Shown here: positions 1 through 57,302 of the stretch, piece after piece
Layout of the letters: every line of letters starts with the position of its first letter
Numbering within the stretch: position 1 is the first letter of the stretch
Assembly (NCBI GenBank): GCA_963565915.1
Contig: OY751490.1
Coordinates: 4,588,001 to 4,652,000 of the forward strand
DNA: 64,000 nucleotides
From: Entoloma clypeatum
Taxonomy: Eukaryota; Basidiomycota; Agaricomycetes; Agaricales; Entolomataceae
Direction: 5' to 3'
Position numbers and translations under genes: made by a program
The notes under the pieces: generated by a model
What the model was told of the DNA's origin: nothing
Seen by the model: the letters and a program-made list of their open reading frames with translations, nothing else
Databases searched by the model: none

Positions 1-2549
1 CGATGAATGGAAAGCTGCCTTTCTCACCAGTTGAGGATTGTTCGAACCGTTGGTCATGTTTTTCGGTCTTTGCAACTCCCCGGGAACGTTCTCTCGAATG
101 ATGGCTAGTCTATTTCGGGACCAGATCCGCCGACGTATCTGCGTGATCTACATGGATGACATCGTGGTTATTGGTAAAACCAAGGAAGAACTCGCATGAA
201 ACACTGAAGAAATCCTACAGATCCTATTGGACAATGATTTGTTCCTAAAGGAGAAGAAGTGTTTATGGGAAGTAACGAAATGTCCTATATTGGGATATGT
301 GGTTGGTGAGGGACGTGTTGAGATGGAAACTGAGAAGGTGGATACAATTCGAAACTGGCGAGCACCCACATCAAAAAAGGAAGTTCAGAAGTTCCTTGGA
401 TTTGCTAACTTCTATCGACGATTTATTGAAGGGTACTCAAACATCGCAAAGCCTCTCACCGCGCTCACAGGCGGTATGGCATTTAGTTGGGGACCAACAG
501 AGCAGCAAGCCTTTGAAGGCCTCATACGGGCAATTACATCGGCACCGGTCTTGGCATTACCAAAACCAGAGGGACAGTTCAGGGTTGAAACCGATGCATC
601 GGGCTATGCAATTGGAGCAGTACTCTCTCAGAAGCAAGACGACAAATGGCACCCCATCGCGTTCTTGTCGCGGACCATGTCCGCGGCCGAACAGAATTAC
701 GAGATATACGACAAGGAACTTCTGGCAGTCATGGAAGCATTGAAAGATTGGAGACACTATCTGCTCGAAGCCAAGGAACATTTTGAAATCTTGACCGATC
801 ATAAGAACCTGGAATACTTCCGTCGTCCTCAGGACCTGAATCAACGACAGCGACGCTGGAAAATGAAGTTACAGGACTATGACTTCGAATTACGGCATGT
901 GCCCGGCAAGACCAATGCGAAAGCGGATTCCTGTCACGCTTACCCTGGTATGAAGCGGAACTCAAACCACAGGACAGTGACCAAATGCTCAAGGAGGGAC
1001 TATTCTTGAAACGATTGGAATCAGAAGATGTGGTACAAATGGAGATGTTCACGGAGGAACAATTCTTTGAAGGGGGTGAAACATCTGATTCCATCAAAAT
1101 TGGAAACGTCACGACCATCGAAAATCCGTGGATTGCACGCATCAAGGGTTCAAACCGCATGGAGACAGAAGTAGCCCAGGGTCTAAAGAAGAATCCTCAT
1201 TGGTATCAACAGGAAAACGGCATCACATATGCAGGCGAACGAGTCTATGTCCCACCAGATCCACAATTGCGACAAGAATTGATGTTTGAATCACACGATG
1301 CACCAGTGGCTGGACATCCAGGACAGTACCGGACACATGAACTCCTCACTCGCACCTACTGGTGGCCTACCATACTGCATGATGTGAAGAAGTACGTGAA
1401 GGGTTGCGACACTTGTCAACGCAACAAGATTAACCGACAAAAGCGACATGCTCCGCTACATCCCCATGCAGCACCAAGTCACCCATGGGAAGACATAGGA
1501 ATCGACGTTGTGGGACCGATACCAGAATCTGATGGAAAAAACGCAATTCTGGTCATCACGGATAGACATTCAAAGATGCTTCACCTCATTCCGACAACCA
1601 TGGAACTATCGGCTGAAGGATTAGCCAAGATCTATCGGGATCAGATATGGAAGCTTCATCGGATCCCCAAGAAGATCATCAGCGATAGGGGACCACAGTT
1701 CGCTGCGAAGTTCATGGAGATACTCTGCCACATGTTAGGGATCAAGGGGAACCTGTCCACCGCATACCACCCACAGACTGATGGACAGGCCGAGTGATCG
1801 CATCAGGAAACAGAAGCATTCTTACGAAACTTTGTCAACCATCTACAGGATGATTGGGCAGAATGGATCGCAATCACAGAGTTCCAGTACAATGACAAAG
1901 AACATCAGGCGACAAGGCGCGCCCCATTCTATCTCAACTACGGTTCACATCCTTGGAAGGGAGAACTAGTGTTAGAAGATACCAATCCGGCTGCCAACGA
2001 CTTCTTGAAAAAACTCAAACAGGCACAAGAAGAAGCCAATGCAGCACTGAAACAAGCACAGGATCAGATGAAGAAGACAGTTGATACACGGCGAAGTCCG
2101 TCTTGGAACTACCGCATCGGGAACAAGGTGTGGCTGGGGGGGGCTAACATCAGGACCGATCGCCCCTCAAGAAGCTTGATGCACTCCGACATGGACCATT
2201 CAAAGTCCTAGAGAAGAAAGGAGCTAGTGCGTACCTTCTTGATCTTCTGAAGACTTGGAAGATGATCCACCCTGTGTTCAACGAGACCCTGTTATCGCCA
2301 TACGAAACCCCGAAGTATGCTATTCAGAAGAAGAAGCCAGCCCCTGATCCGATCATCGTCGAAGGACGAGAAGAGTACCATGTGTCTATGATCCTAGACT
2401 CTTGAAAGTTCCGTGGAAAGATCCAGTACCTCGTCCAGTGGGAAGGATATGGCCCAGAAGAGAACACATGGGAACCTCGAACCAACGTTCAGAACGCCCA
2501 AGATCTGATCCATGATTTCCATCGGCAGAAGCTGTCTCGCCCACGATAA
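1..2549 (+). pseudogene. Gypsy-1 copy A, pol (RT to chromodomain), broken and cut by the window edge
   Basis: Chromovirus polyprotein starting inside reverse transcriptase. In order: RT with the YMDD active site near 150, RNase H (ETDASG near 590), integrase with zinc-binding HHCC (1300-1430), the catalytic core (near 1500-1790, SDRGPQF and YHPQTDG), and a chromodomain (about 2370-2520). It is dead. In-frame TGA codons lie at 32-34, 197-199, 1795-1797 and 2403-2405. Comparison with the copy at 43419-47027 shows that the equivalent codon is arginine at the four sites, CGA where I could read it. Single-base losses near 935 and 2170 shift the frame. Downstream are ORF3 and the 3' LTR of the same element. 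Confidence 0.93.
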
Positions 2550-2682
2550 AAGACATCTTTCGAAAGCCACAACAGTACTGACCTCACCAGTCAAACACAC
2601 ACCGAGTTCCCCGCTCTAGTCCACTTCTCTGCCCAGTATAGCCTCCCCATTCTTCTTTTACCTCTCAACCATCCTCGCCGCC

Positions 2683-3003
2683 ATGTCTAACACCGCCGCT
2701 ACCTCCACTTCCACTGCCGACATCAACCCCGCCATCGCCGCCCTCATGAATGAAGCACTCTCCATGAGAGACCAAATCCATGCCCTTGAAACTTCCCTTG
2801 CCGATCTCCTTCATTGCCAGATGCATATCCAGCTCCACTCACTGTCCAACCTCCCTGTCGCCCCAAGTCCCGAGGAAAAACAAATTCTCAGAAATTACAC
2901 CAGCACCCTCGTCATTGAAAATCGGTGTATTTGGTTGGCTATCAAAGGCCTCGAGCTCACTGTTGCCATCAACGAGGAGATTGGAGCCTCAAGGAGAGCC
3001 TGA
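2683..3003 (+). CDS. Gypsy-1 ORF3, 106-residue protein between pol and 3' LTR
   Basis: Small ORF of unknown function on the pol strand, after the pol stop and before the LTR. It opens MSNTAATSTSTADINPAIAA. A stretch rich in Leu, Met and His (about residues 20-55) has spacing that could form a helix or coiled coil; no catalytic motif is visible. Full or partial copies occur at 12557, 13201, 21273 and 43067 in the same place relative to pol, so it belongs to the element and is not a chance ORF. The start ATG follows a C-rich leader (gccgccATG). I do not recognise the family. Confidence 0.6.
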   Translation: MSNTAATSTSTADINPAIAALMNEALSMRDQIHALETSLADLLHCQMHIQLHSLSNLPVAPSPEEKQILRNYTSTLVIENRCIWLAIKGLELTVAINEEIGASRRA

Positions 3004-3078
3004 ACTGGTCCGACCCCAACAACAATGAGGAATGGGGACAGTGACTCTGTGAGGACACAGAGCTTGAGGAGGGGAACA

Positions 3079-3480
3079 TGTTACGGACTCTACAGTATGA
3101 GGACCATGTCATATCTTTTACCTATCATCCGAACGCGGCGCCCTCTTATGAACTTACTATGTCTAATGTCTACTTTCGCAACCTTCGATTCCCAGTCTGA
3201 CTCACTACCTTACTTTGTCATCCCCTTTAGTATACTTCGCTCCCACGCTGACTTGCTTTCCACAGTCAGCTTACTCATTGTACATAGCCTTCCGCAGTTG
3301 CCTTACTCATGTGCACTGCCTTCCGCAGTACTGACTCATCCGCTATCGCCTATAGTCAGTACCTATATAAACCCTCTGTAGCATAGTTAGATTCCTTAGA
3401 TTTAGCAATCACATTGCTCTTCGCCTTTCCACTTCCTGCATACTCTGCCTGAACCTTGGAACGGTTTGTTAAGCATAACA
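3079..3480 (+). repeat. Gypsy-1 3' LTR, 402 bp
   Basis: Begins TGTTACGG and ends AAGCATAACA, so the termini are TGTTA...TAACA. It is preceded by a purine tract (GAGGAGGGGAACA) fitting a plus-strand primer. A TATA box (CTATATAAAC) lies near 3362. The same 402 bp unit recurs at 21669-22070 and, reversed, at 49835-50236; a 401 bp copy is at 17180-17580. Confidence 0.92.
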
Positions 3481-3541
3481 CTATGGAGGTACAGCACTTC
3501 TTTTCAGGGAAGAAACATTCATCTTCTAACTTCTTTCTTAG

Positions 3542-4591
3542 TCATTCGTCATTCACAAAAACAGTGCCTCAATCACAGAACCGCCCATACTGCATGCTGT
3601 GTTGCTGCCTTCTTCAGATGATTTGGCACTTTCAGCGGAGTTGAAGGAGCGGCATCAAGTCCCTTGGTGGGGGGTCAAGGTCATGGTTATCAAGCGTGGA
3701 CACCAGCGTAAAGGCCAGCCCGCGGTCGTTGAGAATGTTCTGCCCAATCAAGATACAGTGAGCGGCCTCAGGATTGAAGTCCGTTTCATGAACTATGATC
3801 CAAATGTGCCGTTCCTGAAGGCGATCTTCAATTATGATGACATGGTTGAATTTGAGTATGAGTTCCATCCAATATACATTCATCCTCTGATGCTAATTAA
3901 TGATCCTTACTTTCAGCACCAAGCAAGAGCTATTCAAGTTCCAGTACCCACAAAGTCGCCTCTTCGACCCACTTTTCCGTGACCCACTTCCCCGCGCCTG
4001 GCCCCCCCCACCCATCTTAATTGCGAGCACCCCCATGCCTGAGCCTGGAGGCTCATCGTCCACCCCAGCTTGGGATCCATCGTCGCTACTCCTGCCCCAC
4101 AACACCCTTCACATCCGTGCCCACTCCCAATCATGATCTTCTTGATCCACATTTCTTGGGCATCAAAGTACATCAAAGTACAGGTGAAGGTTACTGGTGG
4201 CCAGTTCAACCTGTCGCGGGTCTATGTTTCCAGCACCATGCGTGAAGGACAGCCAAAAATTATTTACACGGCGAATTGAAGGATGCACATTTTGGACCCA
4301 GATTGGGTTTCTATCATCCATCCGAATGTGAAGCAGGCTGACACTCTGCTTGTCGTTCTCAAGGGGGATCATCAGGGTAGGTTTGCTCTTCAAATTTGTC
4401 ATAGTCGCCGTGGCTCTGAGGAAGCAGCTCTCATCGAAATCATTGATTCTGTTGGTGCAAGTTCAACTCGGACAGGAATTGAGGTGCGGCTGCCTGCAGA
4501 CCACCTTGCAATTGTCTTCGAAATAAAGGAAGAGAAACGACGGCATGAGGAGTGCATGGTAGATCGTCGAAAGCAGGCTCGCAACTGACAT
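3542..4591 (+). pseudogene. KOW-domain protein family, broken host-type gene
   Basis: Remnant of a family common in Agaricomycetes with a KOW-like nucleic-acid-binding motif (VKVMVIKRGHQRKGQ, about 3670-3715), then a Ser/Pro-rich stretch (STPAWDPSS, near 4057) and a C-terminal domain (LDPDWVSIIHPN, then LLVVLKGDHQG, 4290-4380). A 61 bp intron at 3856-3916 (GTATGA...TTTCAG) restores the frame to VEFDTKQELFKFQ. Damage: a further frameshift near 4110-4130; a 10-base tandem duplication (CATCAAAGTA at 4161 and 4171) that shifts the frame; and a TGA at about 4277-4279 that fits a former CGA. The 5' end is cut by the Gypsy-1 LTR at 3480. The role of the family is not known to me. Confidence 0.7.
3856..3916 (+). 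other. Spliceosomal intron, 61 bp, in the KOW pseudogene
   Basis: GT...AG limits with a TGCTAAT-like branch site shortly before TTACTTTCAG. Removing it joins two open frames that make sense together. The size is typical of basidiomycetes. Confidence 0.65.
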
Positions 4592-4749
4592 TTTTTTACT
4601 ATCGTTTTATTTTGATAAGAATCCCTCCCCCGCTCTACCTACATACATCATTATCGTCACGCTTAGGGCATTTTATATGACATATTTACACTTGAATCAT
4701 ATTGCTTGCTTGCAGAAAGAAGTCTCAGAGATGCGCGAGTGTTTTGTTT

Positions 4750-5387
4750 GAATTTGTGTTTGTTGTGTTTACGAGGCACCGGCTCAAGCTGGCAGCCAAA
4801 CCGAAACCGCTTACAACCGTGGCTTTGGAACATCACGGTTCGGCTTGGTTTTGGCTCTGTGCAGTGCAGTTTCGGCTCAGAGCCAACTGGAGTTGGAACC
4901 GCGGCAACACTAAACTGGACTGGCCTGGACTGGAAGAGACCTGAACTGGCAGTTCAGGTCTCACTGATTTTGAGCTCAACCAGTCTCCAGTCTCTCCAAA
5001 TTTGGAAAACAATTGGACTGGTTCACCCCCAGTTCTAGTTTTGGGTCTGAAAAATATGAACTGGTTCCAGTTTTTGACCATATATTCATTCAAGAACTGT
5101 AATTTTATGGGCAAAGATGTTCTTTTATACAGTTTTCAATTATTTTTACAAGAGTTTATATCCAAAATGCTTGAGAAACATATTATTGATAACAAATTGA
5201 GTATATTTTCAAGTTTTTGATTGAAAAAACAGGCTTTTGGTAGGTTTATAAATGGTTGAGAATTTCAACAGTTTAAACTGGGTCCAGTCCAGTTTTTTCA
5301 GACTTTGAGAAAAAAAATAAACTGCCAGTCTCCAGTTCATCAATTTTTTGATCAAAAAACTGGACTGGACTGAACCCTCAAACACTA
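4750..5387. mobile_element. hAT-type non-autonomous element, family A, degraded copy
   Basis: The right end reads GAACCCTCAAACACTA, the terminal sequence of family A (see 8623-10804). The body consists of degenerate CTGGACTGG / CCAGTCCAG words on both sides, as in the long inverted ends of the better copies. I could not place the left end or a target duplication. No coding sequence. Confidence 0.5.
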
Positions 5388-5635
5388 CCACTGACCTACA
5401 TATTGGGGTGCAGCTTCAGCATGGCCTCTCACATGTGACGTGGCAGTCTCTAATTTGACTGCTATAGCTACTACTGGATGTCCAGCTGAGGGAACTGCTG
5501 TTCCCTTGGTAGGTCTGACTATATTACAGCCTGGGAAAGACTCATGTTTTCCCATGAATGTCAAAATAAGGTTTTTATCTTTAGTGTTACCAAAAAGCAT
5601 GGCAACACATTGATGATTTTTGCCATTTTTGGTTG
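5385..5635 (-). other. Short open frame, unrecognised
   Basis: A minus-strand frame of about 80 codons (…CVAMLFGNTKDKNLILTF…) with protein-like composition. It has no start that I trust, no recognisable motif and no partner. It may be a fragment of a retroelement protein. Confidence 0.2.
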
Positions 5636-5869
5636 CAAGAGTCTAAGAGAGTATAGAACCACTAGGATAGTTTAAAAAATGTAACATGTCGTTACAGGGA
5701 GCTCTGAATACCTCACCCAGCATGGAGTAAACTAGACCAGTGAATGGATTACTAGGGTTCTTGTGCAGGTGTGAAGATAAGGGCTAGGGCTTATGTAAGG
5801 TAAACAACTACCTAAATAGGGTTTGCCATGAAGCCCTAGCCAAACAACACCAGATCCATTACACATGCC

Positions 5870-6002
5870 CCATGACCACCCCTCATGTCCAACTGCTGCT
5901 CTTAATGCCCAACAGCTGTCTCTCATGCTCAACTGCCATCCCTCACTCCCAACATGCCCAATGTGCCCAACTGCCATTCCTTGCTTCCAACATGCCCCAT
6001 GA
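5870..6002. repeat. Minisatellite family 1 fragment
   Basis: Imperfect tandem units of about 20-24 bp built on TGCCCAACTGCC. A second block of the same family lies at about 6327-6505. The stretch between (6003-6326) is AT-rich and I see nothing definite in it. Confidence 0.6.
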
Positions 6003-6789
6003 CCACCTCTCATGTTAAAGTGCGATATATGTGATAAAACACTTTATTACATGTCAAGAAACATCCTACAATATAGTTATATATAAAATATCAAAAACAC
6101 GATATAGTGGACACCTAGAATCACACCTCATGCATTTCTGAACCGAAAAAGAAGCATACAGAACCAGAATCCAACTATGTCCCAGACTGGGACACATTAC
6201 TGCTTTTGCAAACTTGCGAAACACAGAACTATTAACAAACTCTGTGAATTGGTGAATTGCAGACTATTCTTGACATCATATCTGACTAGTGCTATCACTA
6301 GACTTGATTGGTTTAACATCTCATGCCCAACGGCCACCTCTAGAGTCTCTTGTACCCCATGGCTGCCTCTTGTGTCCAACAGCCATCCCTTGTACCCCAT
6401 GGATGCCCCTCATGCCCAACACCTGTCCCTCACACCCAACTGCTGTCTCCTGCTCTCAACATGCCCAACAGCCATCCCTCATGCCCAATGTGTCCAACTG
6501 CTGTTTAGTGTTTGAAAGTCCAGTCCAGTCCGGTTTTTTGCCCAAAAAATTAAAAACCTAGAACCAAGACTGGTTGAGTGGTTTCTCCAAAAAACTGAAA
6601 CCAGGACTGGACTGGTCAAAGACTGGTGAACCAGTCTTTCCTTTCTCAAAAAAGTAAACCAGGACTGGTTCGAACTGGTTTAAATAAACTGGTTATTTTC
6701 CAATTTATTAAAACTGTTTCGAAATATCATTTATGACACATTTCAAAACATTTTATAGAAGCTTTGATGAAACAATCTATGTGAACCTA

Positions 6790-8395
6790 CAGTGCCTCAC
6801 AAAACTGATTCAATGTTTGTTGCTTTTTGAATACCTTCAAGATAACTCTGCAAAGAATACCAATTGAATTAAACCTTTGGTATATAATTGAAAGCCCTAC
6901 TTCAGGGCTTTCAGAATATAAAGGAATCATATGATTCAGATCAGAATCCATGGAGATATGATTAAATTAAATCAGCAACTCATTGAATCAGTTTTGTGAG
7001 TACCTATGGCAATTATCAGAATCAAATGCTTCACTGGTTGTATGGTAACCAGTTGTCATGACTTACTGATGGAACTTGAATAGAACCCTGATGGGTTGTC
7101 AAGGAAAGTTGTATAAGAAGAATCCAACCTCAACAGCCTCCATAATTAATCATGCGCCCTATCTCCTCTTCCCACAAGGAAAACATTCTTTCTCTGGCCT
7201 CCAATGGTCACTCCACTCATCTAACCTGGGTGTCAGCCAACCAACTGTCTCCAGAGTGCTTCAGAATCTTCTTCCTCATCGCAATCTCTCTTCTGGTGGT
7301 CGTCCATCCAAGCTTTCTCCCACCAACACACGAAACATACTTTCACAAATCACCTCAGGGAGAGCCTCCAATGCTGTGCAGGCTACCAAACACATCAACA
7401 CTGTCATCTCCAATCCTGTCTCCCCAGAAACTGTGAGAAGGGTTCTCAGAAACATGAATTCAAGGCTGTAACAAAGAAGAAAAGACCTTTCTTAAAGGCC
7501 ATACATCGGAAGAGGCAGTTGGTATTTGCTATGAAGCACAGGGAATGGACAGTGGAGGACTGGAAGAGGGTCATTTGGTCAGATGAGACCAAAATCAACA
7601 GGTTTGGGTCAGATGGCAAGGAATGGGTCTGGAAAAAGAAGGGTGAGAGGCTTATTGAAAGAGAGGTTCAGGGCACAGTCAAGTTTGGGGGAGGAAATAT
7701 TATGGTTTGGGGTTGTATGGGTTGGGAAGGTGTGGGGAGACTTGCAGAGGTTGAGGGGAGGATAGATGCTGATCAGTATGTGTCCATTTTGGAGGACAAT
7801 TTGCTGCCCAGCATGGAGGAGAGTGGAATCTCTGAAGAGGAGATCATTTTTCAGCAGGACAATGACCCCAAGCACACCTCCAAGAAGGCCAAAAAATGGA
7901 TGGACAGCAAGAATATTGCTCTGCTGGATTGGCCTGCACAGTCCCCAGACCTCAATTCTATTGAACACCTCTGGGTTCATATTAAAAGGAAGTTGAATGA
8001 ATATCCAACACCACCCAAGGGTGTCTGGGAGATTTGGGACAGAGCAGCAGAGGTGTGGAATAATATAGAGCCAGAAGTGTGTCAAAGCCTGATAGAAAGT
8101 ATGCCAAGAAGGGTAGAGGCAGTAATCAAAGCTAAGGGGGGTAATACCAAGTACTAAAGTATAAAATACTGTATTTATTGTACATACTCACAAAACTGAT
8201 TCAATGAGTCCCTGGAGTAATTTGATCATATATTGATCATTTTTTATGGGAATTACATAATTATTGCAGATTCCGAGAGTCCTGAAGCAGGGCTTTTAAC
8301 CATGTACCAATACCTTCTTTTGATTGGCATTATTTGAAGTTATTTTGAAGGTATTCACAAAGTAGCAAACATTGAATCAGTTTTGTGAGGCACTG
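6790..8395 (+). mobile_element. Tc1/mariner element, 1606 bp
   Basis: Inverted ends start CAGTGCCTCACAAAACTG and are flanked by TA dinucleotides at 6788-6789 and 8396-8397. Each end holds two copies of CTCACAAAACTGATTCAATG facing each other: 6796-6815 with 6981-7000, and 8187-8206 with 8370-8389. Inside is one transposase gene on the plus strand. It sits in the hAT-type element at 6506-8615. Confidence 0.92.
7152..8157 (+). pseudogene. Tc1-like transposase, frameshifted N-terminus
   Basis: Cut-and-paste transposase of the DD34E type. The N-terminal part has paired helix-turn-helix character (LGVSQPTVSRVLQNLL, then GGRPSKLSP). The catalytic half from about 7455 is open: WSDETK (first Asp, near 7580), QQDNDPKHTS (second Asp, near 7855) and SPDLNSIEHLW (Glu, near 7945). 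The ORF ends at 8157. Start chosen at MRPIS by comparison with the second Tc1 at 58752. Two frame changes, near 7220 and 7455, break the DNA-binding half, so this copy is probably inactive as it stands. Confidence 0.88.
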
Positions 8396-8622
8396 TATAA
8401 GAACCTGTGTGAACCTATGACCAGTTTACATTTTTTGAGTCTCAAATCAAGACTGATGTCAAACCAGTCTTCTTCTTTTCCAAAAATTGAAGAACCTGAG
8501 ACTGGTCAATCCTCAAAAATCTGAAACTTGAGACTGCAGTCCAGTCTCTCACCAGTCTTCATCAGTCTGGTTCTGGTCCAGTTCTAGGTCTTTGAGACTG
8601 GACTTCAAAACACTACTGCTGT

Positions 8623-10804
8623 TAGTGTTTGAGGGTTCGGTTTGGTTCAGTTTTTTGCCCCAAAAACGGGTGGACCGAGACTGGACCGGTCTTTCAATCA
8701 CTCAGAAATATGATAGACTGAGACCGAACTGGGGGGAACCGGTCTCGGCATGTCATTTTGCTTGGACTGGACCGGTCCAAACTGGTCTAGACCGGTCGTA
8801 ACTATGGTAATACACTAATAATTTAAAAATGTGTGTTGGGCGCGAGACGACACCGTTGGACGCGAGTGGGGGAGCCGTGGGGCGCGAGTGAGGGGCCGTT
8901 GGTCGTGAGAGGAGGCCGCTGGACGCGAGAGTGGGCCATTGCGCGCGAGTGGGGAGCGTTGGGCGTGAGAAGGTGCTGTTGGGCATGATGGGCAGCCATT
9001 GGGCACACAAAGGGTCTGTTGGGCGCGAAGGGAGGCCATTGGGCATGAGGGGCAGCCATTGGCTGCACAGGGAGGCCGTTGGGTGCACAGGGAGGCCGTT
9101 GGGTGCACAGGGAGGCCATTGGGCATTAGAGGCGGCCACTGGGCACTAGTAGGGGCCATTGGGCATGTGAGGGGGCCGTTAGGCGTGAAGGGGCATTAGA
9201 GTGGGGCATTGGGCACGAAGGGAGGCCATTGGGCGTTAGAGGGGGCCATTGGGCAGCGGTAGTAGCCATTGGGCAGAAGTGGAGCCAGGTGGAGTGGAGG
9301 TGGGGGGATAAAAGAAGTGTGGGAATGTTTTGTTGGCTGTCTGTTGAATTATGGTTCAAGTTTTGGTGATTGCCAAAAGTGCTTGGCAGTCGATGCCGAG
9401 CGATGAGCATCGATGAAACATAAGGCCTCAATGCCCAAACTGTGGCATCACAGGCCTCAAGATAGCTTTGAACTTATGGATAGAGGTATATAGAGTCATA
9501 AAAAGTATATATATAGTTGGAAACTCAAGCTATGTATACTAGAGAATCTGTATTCTAAAATGATGCATCAAAACACACTGTAAATCGTGATGAACAGTGC
9601 ATCATCATGGGTTTTCTCAAACACAAAAACAACCTTTTGTTACTTCCCTCCCTTCCACAACCACTGTAGTCTATATGTACTGTATATATACCATTGTAAC
9701 ATTGTATGTAAATCTACTCACACCATTCAAATCAAGCCCAAGGACTTAATAAGGTGAATAGAAGCAAAATAGATCAAAAATTTGACCAAAAAATTCTGTT
9801 TCAGCTTTGGATTCTCCTCATTCAAGGGACCTCACAGCACATCTGTTTTTCAAATTTGGTGCATTCATTATGGACATATAACACTTTTACTGAAATATGC
9901 ACATTTCATCATTTCTATCTTATCTAGAGATATCTTGATGAGTTCTATCATGTTAAACTATTATTAGATCATGAGGAAGGCACCGCATGCCTGCGCGATG
10001 CATTTGCATATTGTTTACTGTTGTTTGGTGTAAAGCATCACATTATTATATGCTCAAATTCGTGGCAAAAATTCATGAAATAAATAAATATTTATTAACA
10101 TATAATACTCTGGTACATAATTGATATAGTCTGTAAGCTTACTTCCTCCTGTGTAGCCATATTAAGGAGAAATGCGATGTTTTTTGAGTTTGTTTACATA
10201 TATTTGACACATTTGATGCGCGCATGTCGCACATCATCCAATGTCAAATCGACACATCCACCCATTGCTCGCTCCGCAATGAGAGGCACACAGATATAAC
10301 AAAAATAACACAGTAATAATAGTACAGATACAACAAAAATAGCACTGTAAACACAGATACAAAGAAATAACACTGTAATCATATGTTTTAGCTATGTTTT
10401 CACCATGTTTCACTCAATTCTTAACCTTTGTGACTCTGAGCAAGAGTTTATATACAAGCTAGAAATATATTCCACTCAGTTGTAGCTTCAAAACAAGCCT
10501 TAGACCAATGAAATTGCACTATAAATATCTAGAATATTATGCAGATTACTGAAAAATCTCCAAAAATTGTAGAATATTAGGGGGGGGGGGGGTTGGAGGT
10601 GTATCCCAAAGGGCAAAAAGACCGGTCTAGACCTGTTTAGACCGGTCTTTTTGCAGTCTAAGTCAAAAAAAAAATCTAGACTGAACTGCAGTCTAAATTT
10701 TCTAAAATGTATAGACCTTAAACTGCGGTTCAGTCCAACGTGGTCTATTTTTAAATTCAGTTCAGTCCGGTTCAGGTCTATGTAGACTGAACCTTTGAAC
10801 ACTA
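8623..10804. mobile_element. hAT-type non-autonomous element, family A (copy 1), 2182 bp, with minisatellite
   Basis: Starts TAGTGTTTGAGGGTTCGG and ends GAACCTTTGAACACTA. Perfect 8 bp target duplication ACTGCTGT at 8615-8622 and 10805-10812. Long, imperfect inverted ends are made of GGTCCGGTT / GACCGGTCT words (about 8623-8810 and 10610-10804). The interior holds a minisatellite (8830-9290), AT-rich DNA and a run of G (about 10578-10592). I find no transposase. The copy at 39808-42187 is related over most of its length. Confidence 0.82.
8830..9290. repeat. Minisatellite family 1 inside hAT-type copy 1
   Basis: About 20 imperfect units of 21-24 bp on the theme GGCCRTTGGGCRYGAGRGGR. The unit length leaves several frames open on both strands, so the long ORFs here are artefacts. 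Confidence 0.85.
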
Positions 10805-39807: not shown

Positions 39808-42187
39808 TAGTGTTTGAGGGTTCGGTTCGGTTTGGTTTTTTGCCTCCGAGGGGCATAGACCGAGACCGAGACCGGTCTTCATATATGACAAAAGGGCAAA
39901 AAACCAGACCAGACCACTCAGGACGGTCCATCGGACCCATGGACAGTGGATTGAACTGGTCTGGACCAGTCAGAACCGTTTGGTGGGTCGATTAATTATA
40001 CATCGTGGCTAAATATATATATGTATGGGAGTGGTAGCCGTTGGGCATGAACGGAGGCTGTTCGACACATTGGGCGTGAGTCGGCGCTGTTGGGCGCGAT
40101 CAGCGGCTTTGGTGTGATTCAGCGGCTTTGGTGTGATTCAGTGGCTTTGGGCGTGATTTGGCGGCTTTGGGCATGATTTGGCGGCTTTGGGCATGAGTGG
40201 AGGCTGTTGGGCGCAATAGGGGGCGTTGGGCATGGGTGGAGGCCGTGGGGTGTGAGTGGAGGCCGTTGGGCGTGGGTGGAGGCGTTGGGCGTGAACGGAG
40301 GCCGTTGGGCGTGAGTGGAGGCCGTTGGGCGCAGGAGGGGCTGTGGGGCACGAGTTGACGCCGTTGGGCATGGGTGGAGGCCGTTGGGGGTGAGTCGAGG
40401 CCGTGGGGCGCGAGTGGAGGCCATTGGGCACAGGAGGGGCCGTTGGGCGCGAGTCGACACCATTGGGCATGGGTGGAGGCGTTGGGCGTGAATGGAGGCC
40501 GTTGTCCGCAAAAGTAGGCCGTTGGGCGCTAGAGGGGGCAATAGCGGGCCGTTGGCCACAAGTGGTGGTCGTTAGCCATGAGTGGTGGGCATTGGGCGGA
40601 GGTGGTGGCCATATGGAGTGGAGGTGGGGGATAAAAAGAACTGTGGGAACGTTTCGCTGGCCGTCGACTTATGGTTCAACTTTTGGCGATTGCCGAGGTG
40701 CTCGGCAGTCAATGCTGAGTGAGTGTGTCATTGAAACTCGCGGCCTCAATGCCCAAACCGTGGCATCACAGGCCTCAAATATACTTATTAACTGATTTAG
40801 GGATGTTTATAAACCTATAAGAAGTATATATACAGTTAGATACATGAGCCATGTATGGTAGAGAGTCTGGGCAGCAAATTGATGTATCAAATCACATTGT
40901 AAATCGTGATAAACAGTGCATCATGAGTTACCTCAAACACAAAAAACATCATTTCCTCACTTTCTCCTTTCCACAACCCCTTTAAACTACATGTAGTAAA
41001 TATATACTATTGCAACATTGTATGTAAATCTATTCAGACCATGCAAATCAAATTCAAGGACTTAATAAGGTGAATATAAGCAAAATAGGTCGAAAATTTG
41101 ACCAGAAAATTTTACTTCAGCTTTGGATTCTCCCCATTCAGGGGATCTCACAGCACATTTGTTTTTCAAATTTGGTGGATCAATCATGGAGATATAACAC
41201 TTTTACTGAAATATGCACATTTGATTATTTCTATCTTATCTAGATATCTTAAAATTATTCAAGGTGTTTCAGAAGGTCAATATATATGTATTTATGAGTT
41301 CTATGACTTAAAACCCTTATTAGACCATGAGGAAGGTGCCGCGCGCACCCACGCGATGCATTCTGCGCATTGTTTACTATTATTTGGTGCAGAGCTCTGC
41401 ATCGCTATATCATAAGATCTGTGGCGAAATTTCACAAAATAGATACATAGTCAGTGACACAAAATGCTCTAATACTTAATTGATATAGTGCATAAGCTTT
41501 TGCTGCCCCTGTGTAAGACATGTAGGCAGATGTGCGATGTTTTTTAAGTGTGTGTATATTTAGTTGACACATTTGATGCGTGCCTGATGCGCGTCCAAAC
41601 GAGGGCAGGCTATTTGCCCTTATTTGCTTTGGCTGCTTTCTGGCCAAACAAACCCTTTGCCCAGTTCGCCATCTGACTTTCATGCCCACTCTTGCCCAAC
41701 GGCCCTTTCTGGCCTCGACTCGTGCCCAACGCCCCCCTCTAGCACCCAACGGCGTCCTTTCATGCCCAACGGCCTCCCTTCGTGCTCAATGGCCTTCCTT
41801 CGCCCCCAATGGCCTCCACCCACGCCCAACAGCCTCCACTCGTGCCCAACGGCGTCCCTTCGCCTCCAACGGCCTCCACTCATGCCCAACGGCCTTGACT
41901 TGCGCGCAACTGCCACCACTCGAGCCCAACAGCCCCACTCGCGCACAGACGGCCATCCTCACATCCTGTAAATACATATGTAGACCCTGTATTAGCACCC
42001 AAAAGACCGGTCTAGACCGGTCTCAACTGGTCTTTTACCAGTCTTCAAAAAAAAATTTTTGTCAAGACCGAAGACTGGGGCCGTCCCAATTTAGCAAGAC
42101 CGAGACCGCGGTCTCGGTCTATTTCAGTTCATTTTTCGGTTCAGTCTGGTCGGTTCCAGTCCTATTGGACTGAACCTTGAAACACTA
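39808..42187. mobile_element. hAT-type family A element (copy 2), 2380 bp, with two minisatellite arms
   Basis: Starts TAGTGTTTGAGGGTTCGG and ends CCTTGAAACACTA. The target duplication is GTCATGGA at 39800-39807 and 42188-42195. The left arm minisatellite (40025-40620) and right arm (41680-41950) have opposite orientation. The middle (about 40620-41560) resembles 9290-10200 of copy 1, including GCATCACAGGCCTCAA. No transposase. Confidence 0.85.
40025..40620. repeat. Minisatellite family 1, left arm of hAT-type copy 2
   Basis: Units of about 21 bp on the theme GGCCGTTGGGCGYGAGTGGA, many copies. The reverse type recurs at 41680-41950 (TCCACTCRTGCCCAACGGCC). Confidence 0.88.
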
Positions 42188-51247: not shown

Positions 51248-51716
51248 TGTAAGGGCGACCTTACGAACTGACGACTCCGAAGTGCTCCGAAGCGACTTCG
51301 ACGTTGGATGATTTGCAAGGGAGATCCGAAGTTTAGATTGAGCAGTCTGATAACTAATACAACACATACCTTGCAAGGGAGATCCGAAGAGAAGGTTCTA
51401 AGGATTCCCTTGCAAGCTAGTTAGATAAATAGTAAAATGAGATATGAAATATGAAATACGTAAAGGATAAAACGAGACGTATGAATGATGAGTAATGATC
51501 AGGAGTAGGGATGGGGGATGAATGGAAACAAGATGAATGATAGTACTGGCGATCCGACGTGCGGAGTAGCAGAGGGGCGCGGAGTCATTGGATGCGGAGA
51601 GGTGCGGAGAGGTGGATAAGATGTCGGAGGCAGCGGATATGATCGGAGGGCGATGGAGGACGTCGGAGATGGTGGAATAGAAAGGAAAGGAAAAGTGCAA
51701 ACTGGTTGCCCTTACA
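51248..51716 (-). repeat. Gypsy-3 3' LTR, 469 bp
   Basis: TGTAAGGGC…GCCCTTACA, 9 bp inverted termini. On its right is a purine tract in element sense (GAAGGGGGGG), then the chromodomain ORF. Inside, CTTGCAAGGGAGATCCGAAG is repeated twice about 60 bases apart. Confidence 0.8.
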
Positions 51717-51727
51717 TCACCCCCCCT

Positions 51728-52587
51728 TCAAGGCACAGCGTCTCGACGTGTCAGGTGAAATGAGTCGAATATCGCAGCAGAGATCCAACGCGGAGCTCCC
51801 GGATGACGTCGGTAGAAGTCGTGGACTAGGCGCAGAGCGTGGACATTGTCTTCTGCTTCCCAGGAATTCTCTTCGTAGCCATATCCCTTCCATTTGACCA
51901 AGAATTGAAGCTTGCCTCGATGCAGTCGGCTGTCCAAGAGGTTTTCAACATCGTACTCCAATTCTTCTCCGACTACCGTTGGAGGCGGAGGAGAATGGAC
52001 TTGGCGGCGGAAAGGGTCGTCGGGAACTAGTGAAAGTTTGATGACATGGAATACTGGGTGAATGCGGGACATGGAAGGGGGAAGGCGAAGTTCGTAGGCA
52101 TGTGTTCCGACAGGTCGGACCACTGGGAAAGGGCCTACGTACTGATGTGCAAGTTTTTTTGTGGGTCGGGTGGTTTTGAGGTCTGATGAGTCTAAAAAGA
52201 CCTTGTCCCCCGGGCGGAATGTCGGAGTGGTGCTCCGATGCTGGTTGTAGTATCACGCCATGTTGTCTTTTGCCTTTGTCAGTGCTGCGCGAGCCTCCTC
52301 CAGAGCGGACTTCATCCGCTCGCTGAAATCCGCTACCACCTCGATCTCCGTCCGCTTCTTCCGAGGTTTGAATCCCATGCATGGATGGCGGCCAGTGTCG
52401 ATGTAGAACAGAGTTTGACATGTTGATGTGTGAACATGGTTGTTGTATGCAAATTCAGCCATCGGAAGCCATTCGTCCCGGTCGTCTTGACGTTCATTGA
52501 TGAATAGGCGAAGATATTGTTCCAATCCTTGATTGACCCGCTCCGTCTGTCCGTCCGACTGCGGATGGTAGGCTGTCGAGGCAGCTT
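51728..52587 (-). pseudogene. Gypsy-3 integrase C-terminal half and chromodomain
   Basis: Starts in the integrase core (AASTAYHPQSDGQTERVNQ), continues through the linker (FRPGDKVFLDSSDLKTTRPTKK) and a chromodomain (EYDVENLLDSRLHRGKLQFLVKWKGYGYEENSWEAED). One TGA near 52256 replaces Arg. To the right the frame passes at once into the hairpin array. A third chromovirus family, distinct from Gypsy-1 and 2. Confidence 0.88.
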
Positions 52588-53045
52588 GCTTCATTACTAC
52601 ATTGAAGCACATCTCGAGGGTCCCAAAATTGGCCCTCCCTTTCTTTTTGGGGACATCATATTTCCCTGTCGCATTTTGCGACTTTTCGTTTTCGAAACAA
52701 CATAACGTCGTTTTGATAACTGGATGATATTTCATCTCCAGTTCTGTTGGGGAAAACTTTTGAGTTCCCCAGGTTTGTTTTTTCCGGGCGACATTCATTG
52801 TCGTCCAATGCACTTTACTCTTGTACTGACTTCGTGTCAGTACTTATCTCCATCTCAGGCTCAGATGAGCCTGAAGCTTTCGGAGGTTCTATTGAACCTT
52901 CTTGACCTCTCTGTGGTGTTTTCACACCATTCGATAATTGTTACTGAACATTTTGTGAACGACTGGTGTTGTCCTATATCTCTATTTGGCCAGGTCAATT
53001 TGGTTAACCATTCTATCATAACCAAGGGGTCTCCATCAGCAAAAT
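52588..53045. repeat. Array of short unique hairpins, left block
   Basis: Perfect or near-perfect short palindromes with small loops follow one another. Examples: 52668-52682 (GTCGCA), 52749-52770 (GGGGAA), 52823-52843 (GTACTGAC), 52855-52874 (TCAGGCTCA), 52884-52899 (AGGTTC), 52914-52929 (TGGTGT); the stem arm is in brackets. Each stem differs. No gene or domain is recognisable. Confidence 0.8.
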
Positions 53046-53053
53046 GTCTTTTT

Positions 53054-54974
53054 ACTTGAAAGTGTCTTGGAGTTTCTTGAGGGATTGTCCAGATCTCAAG
53101 ATGGTGTTCAAGGCATTCAAGACTCTCAAGATACCTCTCAAGGCTCTCAAGGGTTCATGATTTCCAAGAGAATTCATTGTTCTTGACACTGTCTTGGCCC
53201 TTTCAATGCTCAAGTATTCCAAGACACCTTTCAAGACATATATCCAAGCATTCAAGAAATTTACCCATCTTCAGTCTTCCAAGACACCCCCAAGTGTTCC
53301 CAAGCAGCAGTCATGTACAGACCCTGCCTCAAGTAATATACATTAGGGCATTTCACACCATCCAACTTTTTGTCAACTTTCAACCAACTTGATGCCCAAC
53401 TTAACACCCAAGATTGGAGGCAAAACAAACAGACATTCCCCGCCGTTCTCGCATGTTCCGTGTTGTTCGGTCCACACATTCCTGCATGCCCCCCCCCATT
53501 CTCGCATGTCGTTCTTGCATGCCCTGTGCCTGACCGTTCCTCGCACGTGCCCTGCCATCCTTGTGTATTCTGTGCCATCCCACTGTTTCACCACTGCCAT
53601 GCATTCCGTTGTTCCTGCATGCGCCCACTGTTGTTGTGTGTTGTTCTCGTGTGCCCTGCCATTCTGGCATCTAGGGTGCAGTTTCTCACGTTCCTGCCGC
53701 TGTTCCTGCATCCCCTCGCCCATCCCTCACACATGCCCTGTCATTCTCACATGTTCTGTGCTATTCCTCTGCCGTTCCCCCATGTCCCGCTATTTTGGCG
53801 TGAGTCAACACTGTTGGGTGTGAGTTGAGGTCGTGTGGCGGCAGTTGGGCGTGAATGGGGGCTGTTGAGCATGAGTCGAGATCGTTGGGCATGAAGGGGG
53901 CAGTTGGCCATGAGTCGACACCGTTGGGCGTGAATGAGGGCCATTGGGCACAATCGATGCCCCCTCCCTCCATTCAAACGAGGGCTACAGACCCCCCTAT
54001 ATAGGTAAGCACTGACCTTTGCCCCCCTTCGCGCCCAACAACCCTCACTCATGGCCAACTGCTCCCCTTCATGGCCAATGGCCCTCATTCATGGCCAATG
54101 GTGCCGGCTCAAGGCCAACTACCCCCTTTGCATCCAACGACCTCGACTCATGCTCAACGGCCCCCCTTTGCACCGAACTGCCACCACACGACCTCAACTT
54201 GTGCCCAACGGCCCTCACTCATGCCCAACTTCCCTCCTTCGTACCCAATGGCCCCCCTTTGCACCCAACTGCCGCCACTCATGCCCAACAACCTCAACTC
54301 GAGCCCAACAACCCTAACTCATGCCCAACTTCCTCCCTTCACACCCAATGGTGTCGACTCATGCCCACCATCCCATCCTCCACCTACCCATCCACCAAAT
54401 CATGCAGGAGGCAAAGGCAGTGGCCAGAGAAGGCAAGGTAGGCTGGGAGGTCTATGAACACGAGGCACTGGGATGCAACACAACACGCGCGTGAGGAGGG
54501 AGGGGGGTCCCACGGGTATTCCATACCCCCGCATAGATTAGTAGCCAGTATATCAGCTCATTAATTTCAATAATTTTATTGCTCAGGTCCACTTGATATG
54601 ATCTTGAAGCTGCTTTTGATTGTGACTTGACAACCAGATAGTGTCTTGACAAGCATCTTGGAAGGCTTGATTATTGCTTGAATTTTTAATGTCTCAATGA
54701 TTTATCTTGATGAGGTCTCAAAGATGTCTTTGTTGTCTTGATGAGTTATCTTGATCTCCTTGATATCATCTTGGCAGCCAGAAATTCTGGTAGAGTGTTG
54801 GGCAATTTCTTGTAAGGATCTTGAGATCTCTTGGCTGACTTGGGCCAAAACTTCAACCACTTCAAGTAGACCTCAAGACAGAGACCTTTCTGGGCTTGTC
54901 TTGAGACTAGCTTGTCTTGAAAGACACTTGGAGTGCCACTTGGTTCCAAGAAAGTTCCAAGACAATTTTCAAGT
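53054..54974. mobile_element. Inverted-repeat element between the hairpin blocks
   Basis: Left end ACTTGAAAGTGTCTTGGAGT and right end, reversed, ACTTGAAAATTGTCTTGGAA. The left arm (to about 53400) is rich in CTCAAGA and the right arm (from about 54550) in TCTTGAG. Inside are minisatellite family 2 (53420-53790) and family 1 in both orientations (53800-54370). No transposase. CATCAGCAAAA beyond the left end and its inverse beyond the right end suggest that symmetry continues into the hairpin blocks. Confidence 0.55.
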
Positions 54975-55013
54975 AGCTCAAGTGTGGATTAAAAAAATTG
55001 ACTTTTTGCTGAT

Positions 55014-56475
55014 GAGTCTTGACTCCTCCATGGTTGACAACGACCACATCTTTGGTCATTCTCATCATGGATGACTCTCAAGTCATCTTTGATGCAGGTT
55101 CTTTCGAACCTGCTTGGTTTCGTGGCATATTTTCTTTGAATGTGCAAGGTGTATTGACACCATGTATATTACGAGGTGGTGCTGTTGTACCACCTGTCAT
55201 TTGATGACTATTGTGGGGATGACACCTGATGTTCCCACTGGTTCTCATGTTTCACGGTCATCTCTGTCCATGCAGGTTTATTTAAGCCTGCTTGTTCCAT
55301 TTTTGGGGTGGATTCGTGGGACAACTATGTTCCCATTTCCTCCCCTTCTTGCTTCATACTATGATGAAGCACATCAGGGTTTCTGTGAGGCAATTTCCTT
55401 CACTTCTCCTCTGGTAATAATTTATCCCTCGTCATTTGCAACGACCTTTTCTATTCTTTCGTATGATGGTATCTTTGTATGCCATCTTTATATCCATCAT
55501 ATTGGGACTTATATTTCCCAAGTTGTGGTCCACGAGTTTTTGTACAACGAACAACATATGTTTGTTTTTTAATTGGCAGGACTTTTGCCAAGTATATTAT
55601 CTTTGGTGAGCTTAGCTCGCCATGTCATTTGTTCATTTCTGGGGTTCGCGAGAATCCCCATGTTCACATGAACCTATCATAAATGACATGTTGTCATTTC
55701 TATCTTTCTTTGGCATGAACATCATTTCTGGGCAATGAGATCTTTTCATCTCGAGGGTTATTAGAACCCTCTCAGCTACAATTTTTGTGTGGGCGACACT
55801 TTTGTCGCCACTGTTTTTGTGAATTTTGGAAGTTCAGAGAACCTCCAGCCCATTTTGGGCTCTCACCATGCATTTGCAGTTGATGGCGTCTTTCGGACCA
55901 CAGATGTGGTGCTGATTCTTCTGTCGAGGGTAAAGGTACCCTCGGAACTCTTGTTCCCATTGTTGGTGGTCGTATTCTATGGGTTGATTGGGATTTTGCA
56001 GCCTATTCTGACCGCCATGAAGGCAATTGATCTGCCTTTGATAAAGGTCTTTGAATTTCAAGACCTTCTTTTGAAGTTGACAGAACTTGTGTTCTGTCGA
56101 GACTATCTTTGTCTCTTTTGCAAAGGGGACCTATAGAGTCTTTACTCCATATTTTGAGACAACTGTTCTTGTCTTCCCCCGCCGTTTCTACTTTGGTGAT
56201 GATTTCCGGAGTCTCTTCATTGACTCCAGAGGAGGTTATTCTAACCTCTGTTTCTTGATTCATATTAACGGAAATGTTTCCGTGTTCCTCTCTATACTCT
56301 ATGAGAGATTTGGAAGACTTGAAAGTCTTCCGTTCTAGTCCGTCGACTACATGTCGTGGCCTTATTGGACTTTCAATTGAAGACTCAATAGTCTTCAGTT
56401 CTTCATGATCCACTTTGGATTGGTGGTCAACACCATCTCTGTGGTTCAGAAGTTGATGAGGCTCATAAGCCTCAT
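55014..56475. repeat. Array of short unique hairpins, right block
   Basis: At least 20 perfect stems of 5-9 bp with loops of 2-8 bases in 1.46 kb. Examples: 55094-55113 (GCAGGTTC), 55681-55699 (AAATGACA), 55753-55771 (GAGGGTT), 55897-55910 (ACCACA), 55925-55944 (CGAGGGTA), 56044-56067 (AAGGTCTT), 56079-56098 (GACAGAAC), 56268-56283 (ACGGAAA), 56312-56331 (GGAAGACTT), 56378-56397 (TGAAGACT), 56456-56475 (ATGAGGCT). The stems are all different, so this is not a repeat of one unit. ORFs across it show no known domain. Confidence 0.85.
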
Positions 56476-56527
56476 GGTTTCTTTCCACGACAATATCTCC
56501 CAATACGTGCTGGAATCTGAGGACTGC

Positions 56528-57256
56528 TTACCATTTTTTTGACTTGGTCGTCTTCTCCGATCTGTCCTCAGCTTGGGCTGCGCAGGCATTTGCTTTGGCA
56601 TTAGAAGATGATTTTTTTGAGTAGTTGACTGCCCTGTGACCAACGTTTCCGCAAAACATGCATAAATTGTTGTCAAATTGCCGCTGGCATTCTTGGGGAG
56701 TCAATTTCCCGTCTTTGCCAAGTTTGTCAGAGAGGGCAGATTTTGGAGAGGTGGATGACAACTTTTGTTGTTGTTGCGAGTTGGGTTTAGATGATGAGGA
56801 GTTGTTGTTGGAAGATGATGAAGTGGGGGTCTGTTTCTTGTCGGGGTGCATTGTGTCAGGAAACTGGTGAGTTTCCCGAGAGTCAGAGCCATCAAAAGTG
56901 TCAGGTTCCTTCAACTTCTTTTTCAGAGATCTCGGAGTTTCTCTACATTGGAGCTCCTGCATCATAAGCATAATCGCTTCGGCGAGGTTTGGAGTCTGTT
57001 TGCGATGGAAAGGGTTGTCGAAAGGAGATGTCAGAGATTTGTGAAAAGGACAGGATCCTTCAGGAATGGGAGGTCCCTGAGTCTGAGGTGTTCAGAGACG
57101 AGGTGTCGGAGATATGGGATCAGGTTTGGGTGCAGATTCTTCTGCAGAAAGATCTTGGAACGTATGTAGAAATGATGCCCTGGTGTTCTGCAGATTTGAA
57201 GCTTCTGCCGTGGCTGCTGCTGCGCGGGAGTTCTGAGTGGTGCGGGCTGCTGCCAT
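56528..57256 (-). pseudogene. Gypsy-5 Gag with internal deletion
   Basis: Start MAAARTTQNSRAAAATAEAS. Then a Pro-rich stretch, AEAIMLMMQELQCRETPRSL, the usual capsid entry KLKEPDTFDGSDSRE, and an abrupt pass into a Ser/Asn/Gln-rich linker and one CCHC knuckle whose last Cys is Tyr (CMFCGNVGHRAVNY). About 150 residues of capsid seem to be missing. One TGA lies near 57075. Its left neighbour, where pol should be, is the hairpin array. Confidence 0.75.
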
Positions 57257-57302
57257 AACTGGAATTTGAAATACAGATAAGCGAGTGGCAGTTTGAATAT
57301 AC

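Follow-up and report, generated by a model that had tools for sequence, protein, structure and literature searches.

Short hairpins along a long terminal repeat retrotransposon of Entoloma clypeatum and along a Ty3/gypsy family of different sequence

Why should 1,462 bases of fungal DNA be filled with short hairpins whose stems differ from one another? This question was raised by a stretch of 64,000 nucleotides of Entoloma clypeatum (contig OY751490.1 of assembly GCA_963565915.1, positions 4,588,001 to 4,652,000), hereafter the window, whose coordinates are used unless another sequence is named. An initial annotation, made from the letters alone, had described a dense hairpin array at 55014-56475, considered that hairpins are made or kept there as such, and proposed as origins repeated fold-back copying errors, a structured RNA or an arm of a foldback element. 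We report here that the cluster is a broken copy of a repeated long terminal repeat (LTR) retrotransposon in which no pol was detected, and that an autonomous Ty3/gypsy family unlike it in sequence, which lay beyond the view of that annotation, is full of such hairpins as well.

The hairpin array and the element that carries it

We counted non-overlapping perfect stems with loops of 2-8 nucleotides (nt) and compared them with 100 dinucleotide shuffles of the array. At 55014-56475 there were 22 stems of at least 6 bp (shuffle mean 2.42, maximum 7), 15 of at least 7 bp (mean 0.57, maximum 3) and 9 of at least 8 bp (mean 0.10, maximum 1), and the excess was seen again with 60 shuffles. The description of a dense array was thus borne out, its density being far above that of dinucleotide-shuffled sequence. 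In 1-kb bins of the window, both array bins held 8 stems of at least 7 bp and all others 0-4. The stems do differ in sequence, which agrees with hairpins being made or kept as such, and the eight hairpins that had been cited as examples were all found in place, seven with perfect 8-bp stems and one with 9 bp (stem count; no strand assigned):

55094 to 55113: hairpin, 8-bp stem, 4-nt loop
55681 to 55699: hairpin, 8-bp stem, 3-nt loop
55925 to 55944: hairpin, 8-bp stem, 4-nt loop
56044 to 56067: hairpin, 8-bp stem, 8-nt loop
56079 to 56098: hairpin, 8-bp stem, 4-nt loop
56312 to 56331: hairpin, 9-bp stem, 2-nt loop
56378 to 56397: hairpin, 8-bp stem, 4-nt loop
56456 to 56475: hairpin, 8-bp stem, 4-nt loop

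The host assembly (60 Mb, 20 contigs) was then searched by DNA for other copies, a check that had been suggested, and 60 matching pieces were found, the window included. Local misassembly is therefore ruled out as the explanation. We took 20 stretches of 8-10 kb; one of them, L009, served as the reference and the other 19 all matched it. Numbers with the prefix L (L009, L056 and so on) designate such stretches, of the host genome unless stated otherwise, and the sample consists of decayed copies within one genome. By alignment with L009, the window copy is a deleted fragment of a larger element, a point that the initial annotation had missed; the array is indeed at the site described, but its limits are different, as it comprises a main fragment and a separate piece:

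55017 to 56498, minus strand: main array fragment of the hairpin retrotransposon (blastn against L009, 91% and 89% identity)
52589 to 53025, minus strand: second piece of the same copy (L009 3328-3749; blastn, 82% against L009)
53026 to 55016, no strand assigned: insertion within the copy, not hairpin element (flanking sequence matches L009 up to 3749 and from 3788)
56003 to 56527, minus strand: 174-codon open stretch that overlaps hairpins, remnant of the element's long open reading frame (same protein sequence in other copies)

The main fragment is made of two joined pieces, 55017-55728 (L009 3788-4497) and 55720-56498 (L009 6462-7240), between which about 2 kb of the element is absent. The second piece holds stems at 52823-52843 and 52855-52874. 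The insertion is bounded by short inverted ends, CATCAGCAAAA and TTTTGCTGATG, has internal 20-bp tandem repeats, and looks like a DNA transposon.

Direct LTRs of 181 bp (TGTAAC..GTTACA, with TG..CA ends) are present at both ends of the element. Its right end is such an LTR, and the same sequence lies about 390 bp to the left of the array in other copies; L009 is without its left LTR. The 26 rows of our LTR table correspond to 25 distinct LTRs (L014 and L029 show the same one), some of them cut or with changed tips. From 33 LTR places, five pairs in the same orientation and no more than 50 kb apart could be formed, and all five have a 5-bp target duplication (AATAC, ATGCT, GAACG, TCCAG and CCTCT; flanks matched by eye). 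The LTRs and the shared 5-bp flanks thus make it an LTR retrotransposon. A polypurine tract, CTTGAAGGGGGATA, precedes the LTR in seven of the 11 distinct 3' LTRs shown whole there, with near-matches in four. Since a purine tract, GAAGGGGGATA, adjoins the left LTR, the sense strand is the minus strand of the window. A conserved leader, TTTTTTAAGCTATC, follows the 5' LTR. Foldback elements are self-complementary DNA with long terminal inverted arms; the hairpin element is self-complementary too, but in L009 it has no inverted arms of at least 40 nt within the element, and direct LTRs with target duplications instead, so that the proposal of a foldback arm was wrong. The only inverted pair of at least 40 nt in L009 (9496-9927) falls outside the element, and we rejected this candidate.

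The hairpins of L009 span 1948 to 8667 (about 6.7 kb), in a part with an open reading frame (ORF) as well as in a stop-rich part. We counted 101 hairpins with at least seven Watson-Crick pairs and no more than one mismatch, and the interior contains 70 stems of at least 7 bp against 2.5 in 60 shuffles. Reading the sense strand in 300-base bins from about 8495 down to about 5800, the best frame has 0, 1 and 1 majority stops per 100 codons and then, after a frame change, 0, 0, 0, 1, 0 and 0; beyond this part, every frame has at least one majority stop in 11 of the 13 bins. Such tallies imply that roughly 900 codons form one ORF, which frame shifts interrupt in L009. In the copy L028, 466 codons are open from an ATG, and this ORF holds 17 stems against 1.55 (maximum 4) when synonymous codons are shuffled (100 shuffles).

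We detected no Pfam match in the four ORFs of the element that were scanned, no relative of its ORF (at E ≤ 0.001) in the 2,454 word-sharing candidates drawn from 5.8 billion proteins, and no match to reverse transcriptase (RT) in the element of L009, with 93 of 2,848 candidates scored there. The AlphaFold prediction for the ORF has a mean predicted local distance difference test (pLDDT) value of 34.6. The gag-pol of an autonomous Ty3/gypsy element, with RT, RNase H and integrase, was thus not found in the ORFs of the hairpin element. Non-autonomous LTR elements, among them the large retrotransposon derivatives (LARDs), are known mostly from plants, and a LARD has a large interior without coding capacity. 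The hairpin element is like them in its LTRs, its polypurine tract, its long interior without detected pol and its likely movement in trans; it differs in its hairpin array and in keeping the long ORF without detected relatives. With roughly 900 open codons implied, and 466 in L028, it was not assigned to this class.

Other sequences were noted around the element. Window 51313-52428 is a gypsy-type pol end, 92% identical to L009 1-1116, where the ORF has a chromodomain. On the other side of the array, 56528-57091 is a gag-like ORF without a Pfam match above the cut-off, with what we take to be a zinc-knuckle-like motif. These gypsy-type parts on either side suggest a nested insertion. A 20-bp repeat, TTGGGCGTGAGTGGAGGCCG, forms long arrays together with its complement at 40070-40627 and 41711-41954, and the repeat is present at several places of the window and beside L056. 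We also observed a second family of hairpin tracts of about 1 kb (L035 3117-4175 and its relatives L036-L043), with 74-76% identity to L009 2216-3060 and, for the most part, 93-94% identity to L035. Near one of its copies, L044 3993-4919 is an ORF with an alpha-kinase domain (Pfam, 4e-08).

A Ty3/gypsy family with the same trait

By searching for the junction patterns, we reached L056. This Ty3/gypsy element is 9,116 bp long, is flanked on both sides by the 5-bp repeat CCGTG and has LTRs of about 190 bp. RT, RNase H and integrase zinc-binding domain matches are present in gypsy order, and the pol of this copy is interrupted by stop codons. L056 is related to the Ty3 structure in the PDB (7q5b) and is like yeast Ty3 in its order of RT, RNase H and integrase, its LTRs and its 5-bp target duplication. 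L056 and the hairpin element are alike in their LTR tips, leader and polypurine tract. In blastn they had nothing else in common than a 31-bp match at the LTR/leader, and tblastn of the hairpin element's ORF against L056 gave nothing better than E 0.6. From the resemblance of the ends, the pol-less element is likely to be moved by the L056 family; the leader and LTR tips are more specific to this partnership than the purine tract.

L056 holds 53 stems of at least 7 bp against 3.3 in shuffled sequence (maximum 9; 60 shuffles). Eight of its ORF stretches contain 39 stems against 3.73 with only synonymous codons shuffled (100 shuffles); the excess within pol is not explained by the protein sequence. 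A second copy, L057, has 14 stems against 1.38 (50 shuffles), and relatives at 71-83% DNA identity are enriched as well (L060, 9 against 0.98; L061, 6 against 0.33; L062, 6 against 0.53). L056 and L057 differ by 289 transitions and 24 transversions, as expected of cytosine-methylation decay of repeats. A remnant of the family was also observed in the window, 50 kb from the array:

5388 to 5871, minus strand: partner family remnant, LTR and leader, 91% identical to L056 (alignment and junction pattern match; L056 304-780 aligns with 5865-5388, and L056 9230-9421 with 5871-5680)

The trait is not host-wide: seven more distant Ty3-type stretches of the genome are without it. Five of these, in the window, have 2, 0, 0, 0 and 1 stems against 1.7, 1.1, 1.0, 0.2 and 0.7 expected; the two others, L058 and L059, which are the next RT relatives (37-38% protein identity), have 0 and 0 against 1.32 and 0.98. 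The second family of hairpin tracts has 5 stems against 0.6, and its neighbouring ORFs 0 against 0.6. Among the other stretches, L044 has 2 against 2.5, window 56500-57300 has 1 against 0.3, and mixed repeats have 13 against 3.1 and 7 against 2.5. There is thus some background, below the level of the arrays. Among the protein matches listed for related elements are those of the Agaricomycetes Leucocoprinus, Lyophyllum, Trametes, Pleurotus and Hypsizygus, at 52-77% identity, which by themselves would point to a host in this group. Searches for relatives in viral contigs found none; among prokaryote genome contigs there was one, in a lichen-associated contig (L063, 33% identity), which is not enriched (5 stems of at least 7 bp against 2.11 expected, maximum 6).

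The seven more distant Ty3-type stretches thus differ from L056 and from the hairpin element, in both of which hairpins mostly of one size run along the whole element. For Ty3 RNA, a palindromic dimerisation site has been proposed near the 5' end, and the accessible part of that work describes stable and dynamic regions, not hairpin arrays (PMC11381356). Searches of open full text, which leaves out most subscription papers, turned up no account of such an array.

Hairpin size, strand symmetry and changes between copies

Stem sizes were compared in five sequences of both families (L009, L011, L012, L016 and L056). With one mismatch allowed, the mode is 8 bp in all five and few stems exceed 9 bp; for 6-10 bp the numbers are 22/37/47/25/4 in L009 and 27/36/53/20/8 in L056. 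In shuffled sequence, stem numbers drop about fourfold per added base pair. When perfect stems only are counted (6, 7, 8, 9 and 10 bp: 26/23/32/16/2 in L009 and 31/23/30/6/2 in L056), 6-bp stems are as common as 8-bp stems or commoner in three of the five sequences. Pairing past the first mismatch is near chance. In L009, 47 of the 73 hairpins with stems of at least 7 bp measure 19-21 nt, and L056 is broader. Loops of 3-7 nt are favoured and outnumber those of 0-2 nt. The spacing of hairpins looks random, with a standard deviation near the mean (75.8 and 64.4 in L009; 122.1 and 97.4 in L056).

We observed that both strands are predicted to fold to a similar extent. Mean program-predicted folding z-scores in 300-base windows, sense and antisense, are -5.16 and -5.21 for L009 (11 windows) and -3.57 and -3.37 for L056 (15 windows), those of two controls being -0.17 and -0.48, and 0.62 and 0.69. 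For the window piece 55720-56475 they are -12.9 and -11.2. Such folding is consistent with Watson-Crick pairs being needed on both strands, and also with a copying process that yields Watson-Crick arms. Satellite tobacco mosaic virus and RNA phages have genomes of many short stem-loops, and phage RNAs are thought to be self-folding in both strands; these are RNA viruses, whereas the hairpin element is a reverse-transcribing nuclear element, likened to them by fold alone.

Selection acting on RNA only would predict G-U pairs in excess of A-C mismatches. The tally of single stem mismatches in diverged relatives, in sense orientation, runs opposite (G-T 27, A-C 50, p 0.012). In diverged repeats of the hairpin element, 18 changes on both sides of a pair, 12 of them Watson-Crick, were found in 250 pairs against about 8.6 expected under independence, an expectation obtained by arithmetic on the mismatch tally of diverged relatives. 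Covariation between aligned copies had been suggested as a check; double changes do exist, but those of close copies are largely independent CpG decay. The conservation of stems (0.056, against 0.109 between hairpins) was not used, as this figure is inflated by the choice of stems that are perfect in L009. L056 and L061 (87% identity) have several hairpins in common. In RT, private changes at conserved positions do not differ between stems (2 of 33) and elsewhere (18 of 233); this lack of extra amino-acid cost fits either selection or copying.

Selection for a fold or a product of copying

We favour the explanation that selection maintains the hairpins for the sake of a fold that the RNA and the complementary strand are both predicted to adopt, in a pol-less retrotransposon that shares the trait with the Ty3/gypsy partner likely to mobilise it, an account to which we would give an even chance of being correct. 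The pol-less element would travel with the Gag, RT and integrase of its partner. Each strand, that is the genomic RNA and the minus-strand cDNA or an antisense RNA, would form a row of hairpins of about 20 nt by pairing with itself; strands folded in this way would anneal to each other slowly, and the nucleic acid would be compact for packing into particles. Stems held below about 10 bp would offer no target to Dicer-type enzymes and no block to RT. A G-U pair becomes an A-C mismatch in the opposite strand; if both strands have to pair, the lack of preference for G-U in sense would be explained. Such short stems would avoid Dicer-type enzymes, to judge by the length of Dicer substrates. The genome holds exons of RNA-dependent RNA polymerase and of the Piwi family, which makes RNA interference plausible, not proven. 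A bolder form of this explanation, which we put forward tentatively and hold to be rather doubtful, is that a Ty3 lineage of mushrooms has rebuilt its whole genome, pol included, as hairpin beads of about 20 nt, a strand-symmetric stealth fold too short-stemmed for Dicer but stable enough to hold the sense and antisense strands apart, of which the pol-less hitchhiker would be the extreme.

Several observations weigh against selection for such a fold, each functional step of which we infer. The limit on stem size is not absolute, since L016, one of the four hairpin-element copies in the size sample, reaches 11 bp with a perfect stem, and 12 and 14 bp when a mismatch is allowed; it is the only one of the five sequences with stems above 10 bp. 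In L009, stems of at least 7 bp are denser in the ORF part (36 in 2,691 bases, 13.4 per kb) than in the stop-rich part (33 in 3,859 bases, 8.6 per kb), which a simple coding cost would not predict. The surplus of A-C over G-T means that exact strand symmetry may not hold; it may come from a G-to-A bias in the sense strand, not separable from a real asymmetry. In diverged relatives of the partner, both-side changes number 13 (9 Watson-Crick) in 238 pairs against about 9.5 expected by the same arithmetic. Between L056 and L062 (70% identity), stem sites differ at 0.304 and all sites at 0.303, and none of the seven tallied hairpins is perfect in both; individual hairpins are not conserved between the more distant families. 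The covariation of close copies (78 double changes against 19 expected at first count) was rejected as proof of structure, being mostly independent decay of C-to-T type at CpG. The partnership rests on short shared ends, of which the polypurine tract counts for less because a similar one is present in other gypsy elements of this genome (L009 near 700-720); no primer-binding site was identified, the leader not having been compared with host tRNAs. Finally, a related gag stretch beside L009 (8834-9490) has no stem of at least 7 bp in its 657 bases (0.23 expected) and the homologous stretch of L056 has 4; this hairpin-free sister gag is too short to date the origin of the trait.

Two of the origins proposed initially, a structured RNA and fold-back copying, are both still live. 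According to the latter, the strongest competitor of selection although we consider it unlikely, the RT of the lineage tends to fold the new strand back (template switching, quasipalindrome correction) and so fills any RNA that it copies with perfect short hairpins, and the pol-less element has the trait because the same enzyme copies it. Indeed, the trait tracks the likely replication machinery and not the sequence, the two elements having only the 31-bp blastn match in common; there is no sense preference for G-U, folding is similar on both strands, and hairpins occur at random-looking intervals in coding and non-coding parts. The RT ORF of L056 has fewer stems of at least 7 bp (5 in 1,371 bases) than its two downstream ORFs (11 in 1,482 and 8 in 1,350), which also speaks for this explanation. 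In the accessible part of a study of template-switch RNA hairpins (Monttinen and Loytynoja 2022, PMC8794818), such a mechanism, able to create and repair perfect stems like those found here, is put forward for RNA genes in the course of DNA replication; ours is an element-wide array in one retroelement lineage, and copying clusters were not detected. Among recent copies, reverse-complement copying explains only 5 of 890 distinct multi-base clusters, about as many as in controls (complement 4, forward 4, reversed 1). Single mismatches persist in stems, so that arms are not rewritten whole, and the 8-bp mode with few stems above 9 bp is unlike tracts of variable length unless the enzyme sets the length.

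Dispersed packaging signals, which the sources accessible to us describe from several virus families, are a quite improbable alternative. On this view the sense RNA would offer Gag a weakly specific site in each hairpin of about 20 nt, with more of them kept by the pol-less element to compete for the particles of its partner. Hairpin size is similar in both families, the pol-less element is dense (70 stems in 6.7 kb against 53 in 8.7 kb in L056), and the unpaired regions of L009 are A-rich in sense (0.40 A in loops, 0.35 A in linkers); yet selection on sense RNA should favour G-U over A-C, the antisense strand folds about as well, and hairpins turn over between families. That the hairpins act in DNA as palindromic duplex or cruciforms, for example as host-factor sites or integration targets, would agree with the strand symmetry and the lack of G-U preference, but seems very improbable given that the stems differ in sequence, that 3-7-nt loops outnumber shorter ones, and that the trait was observed in a single retroelement lineage, the more distant elements tested being without it. 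Ordinary causes (chance, low complexity, assembly error, a known foldback or miniature transposon) are already refuted by the shuffle, copy and LTR tests and retain a negligible probability. The rest of the window does have about twice the shuffled number of stems of at least 7 bp (52 against 25.35, 20 shuffles), but the array excess, its many copies, the LTRs with their target duplications and the lack of long inverted arms all speak against them, as does the absence of any Rfam match at the gathering score in window 52500-57300.

Two unrelated sequences with one common mark allow selection and copying to be told apart. If the hairpins are a product of copying, an RT would write hairpins into each RNA that it copies, and the genome would be the record of a mutation process. 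If they are kept by selection, an LTR retrotransposon would have laid an element-wide structural rule on its RNA over the protein code, with its parasite showing the rule in purer form; this would provide a test, made by nature, of the reasons for local folding in RNA genomes and perhaps of the ways in which transposons evade RNA interference.
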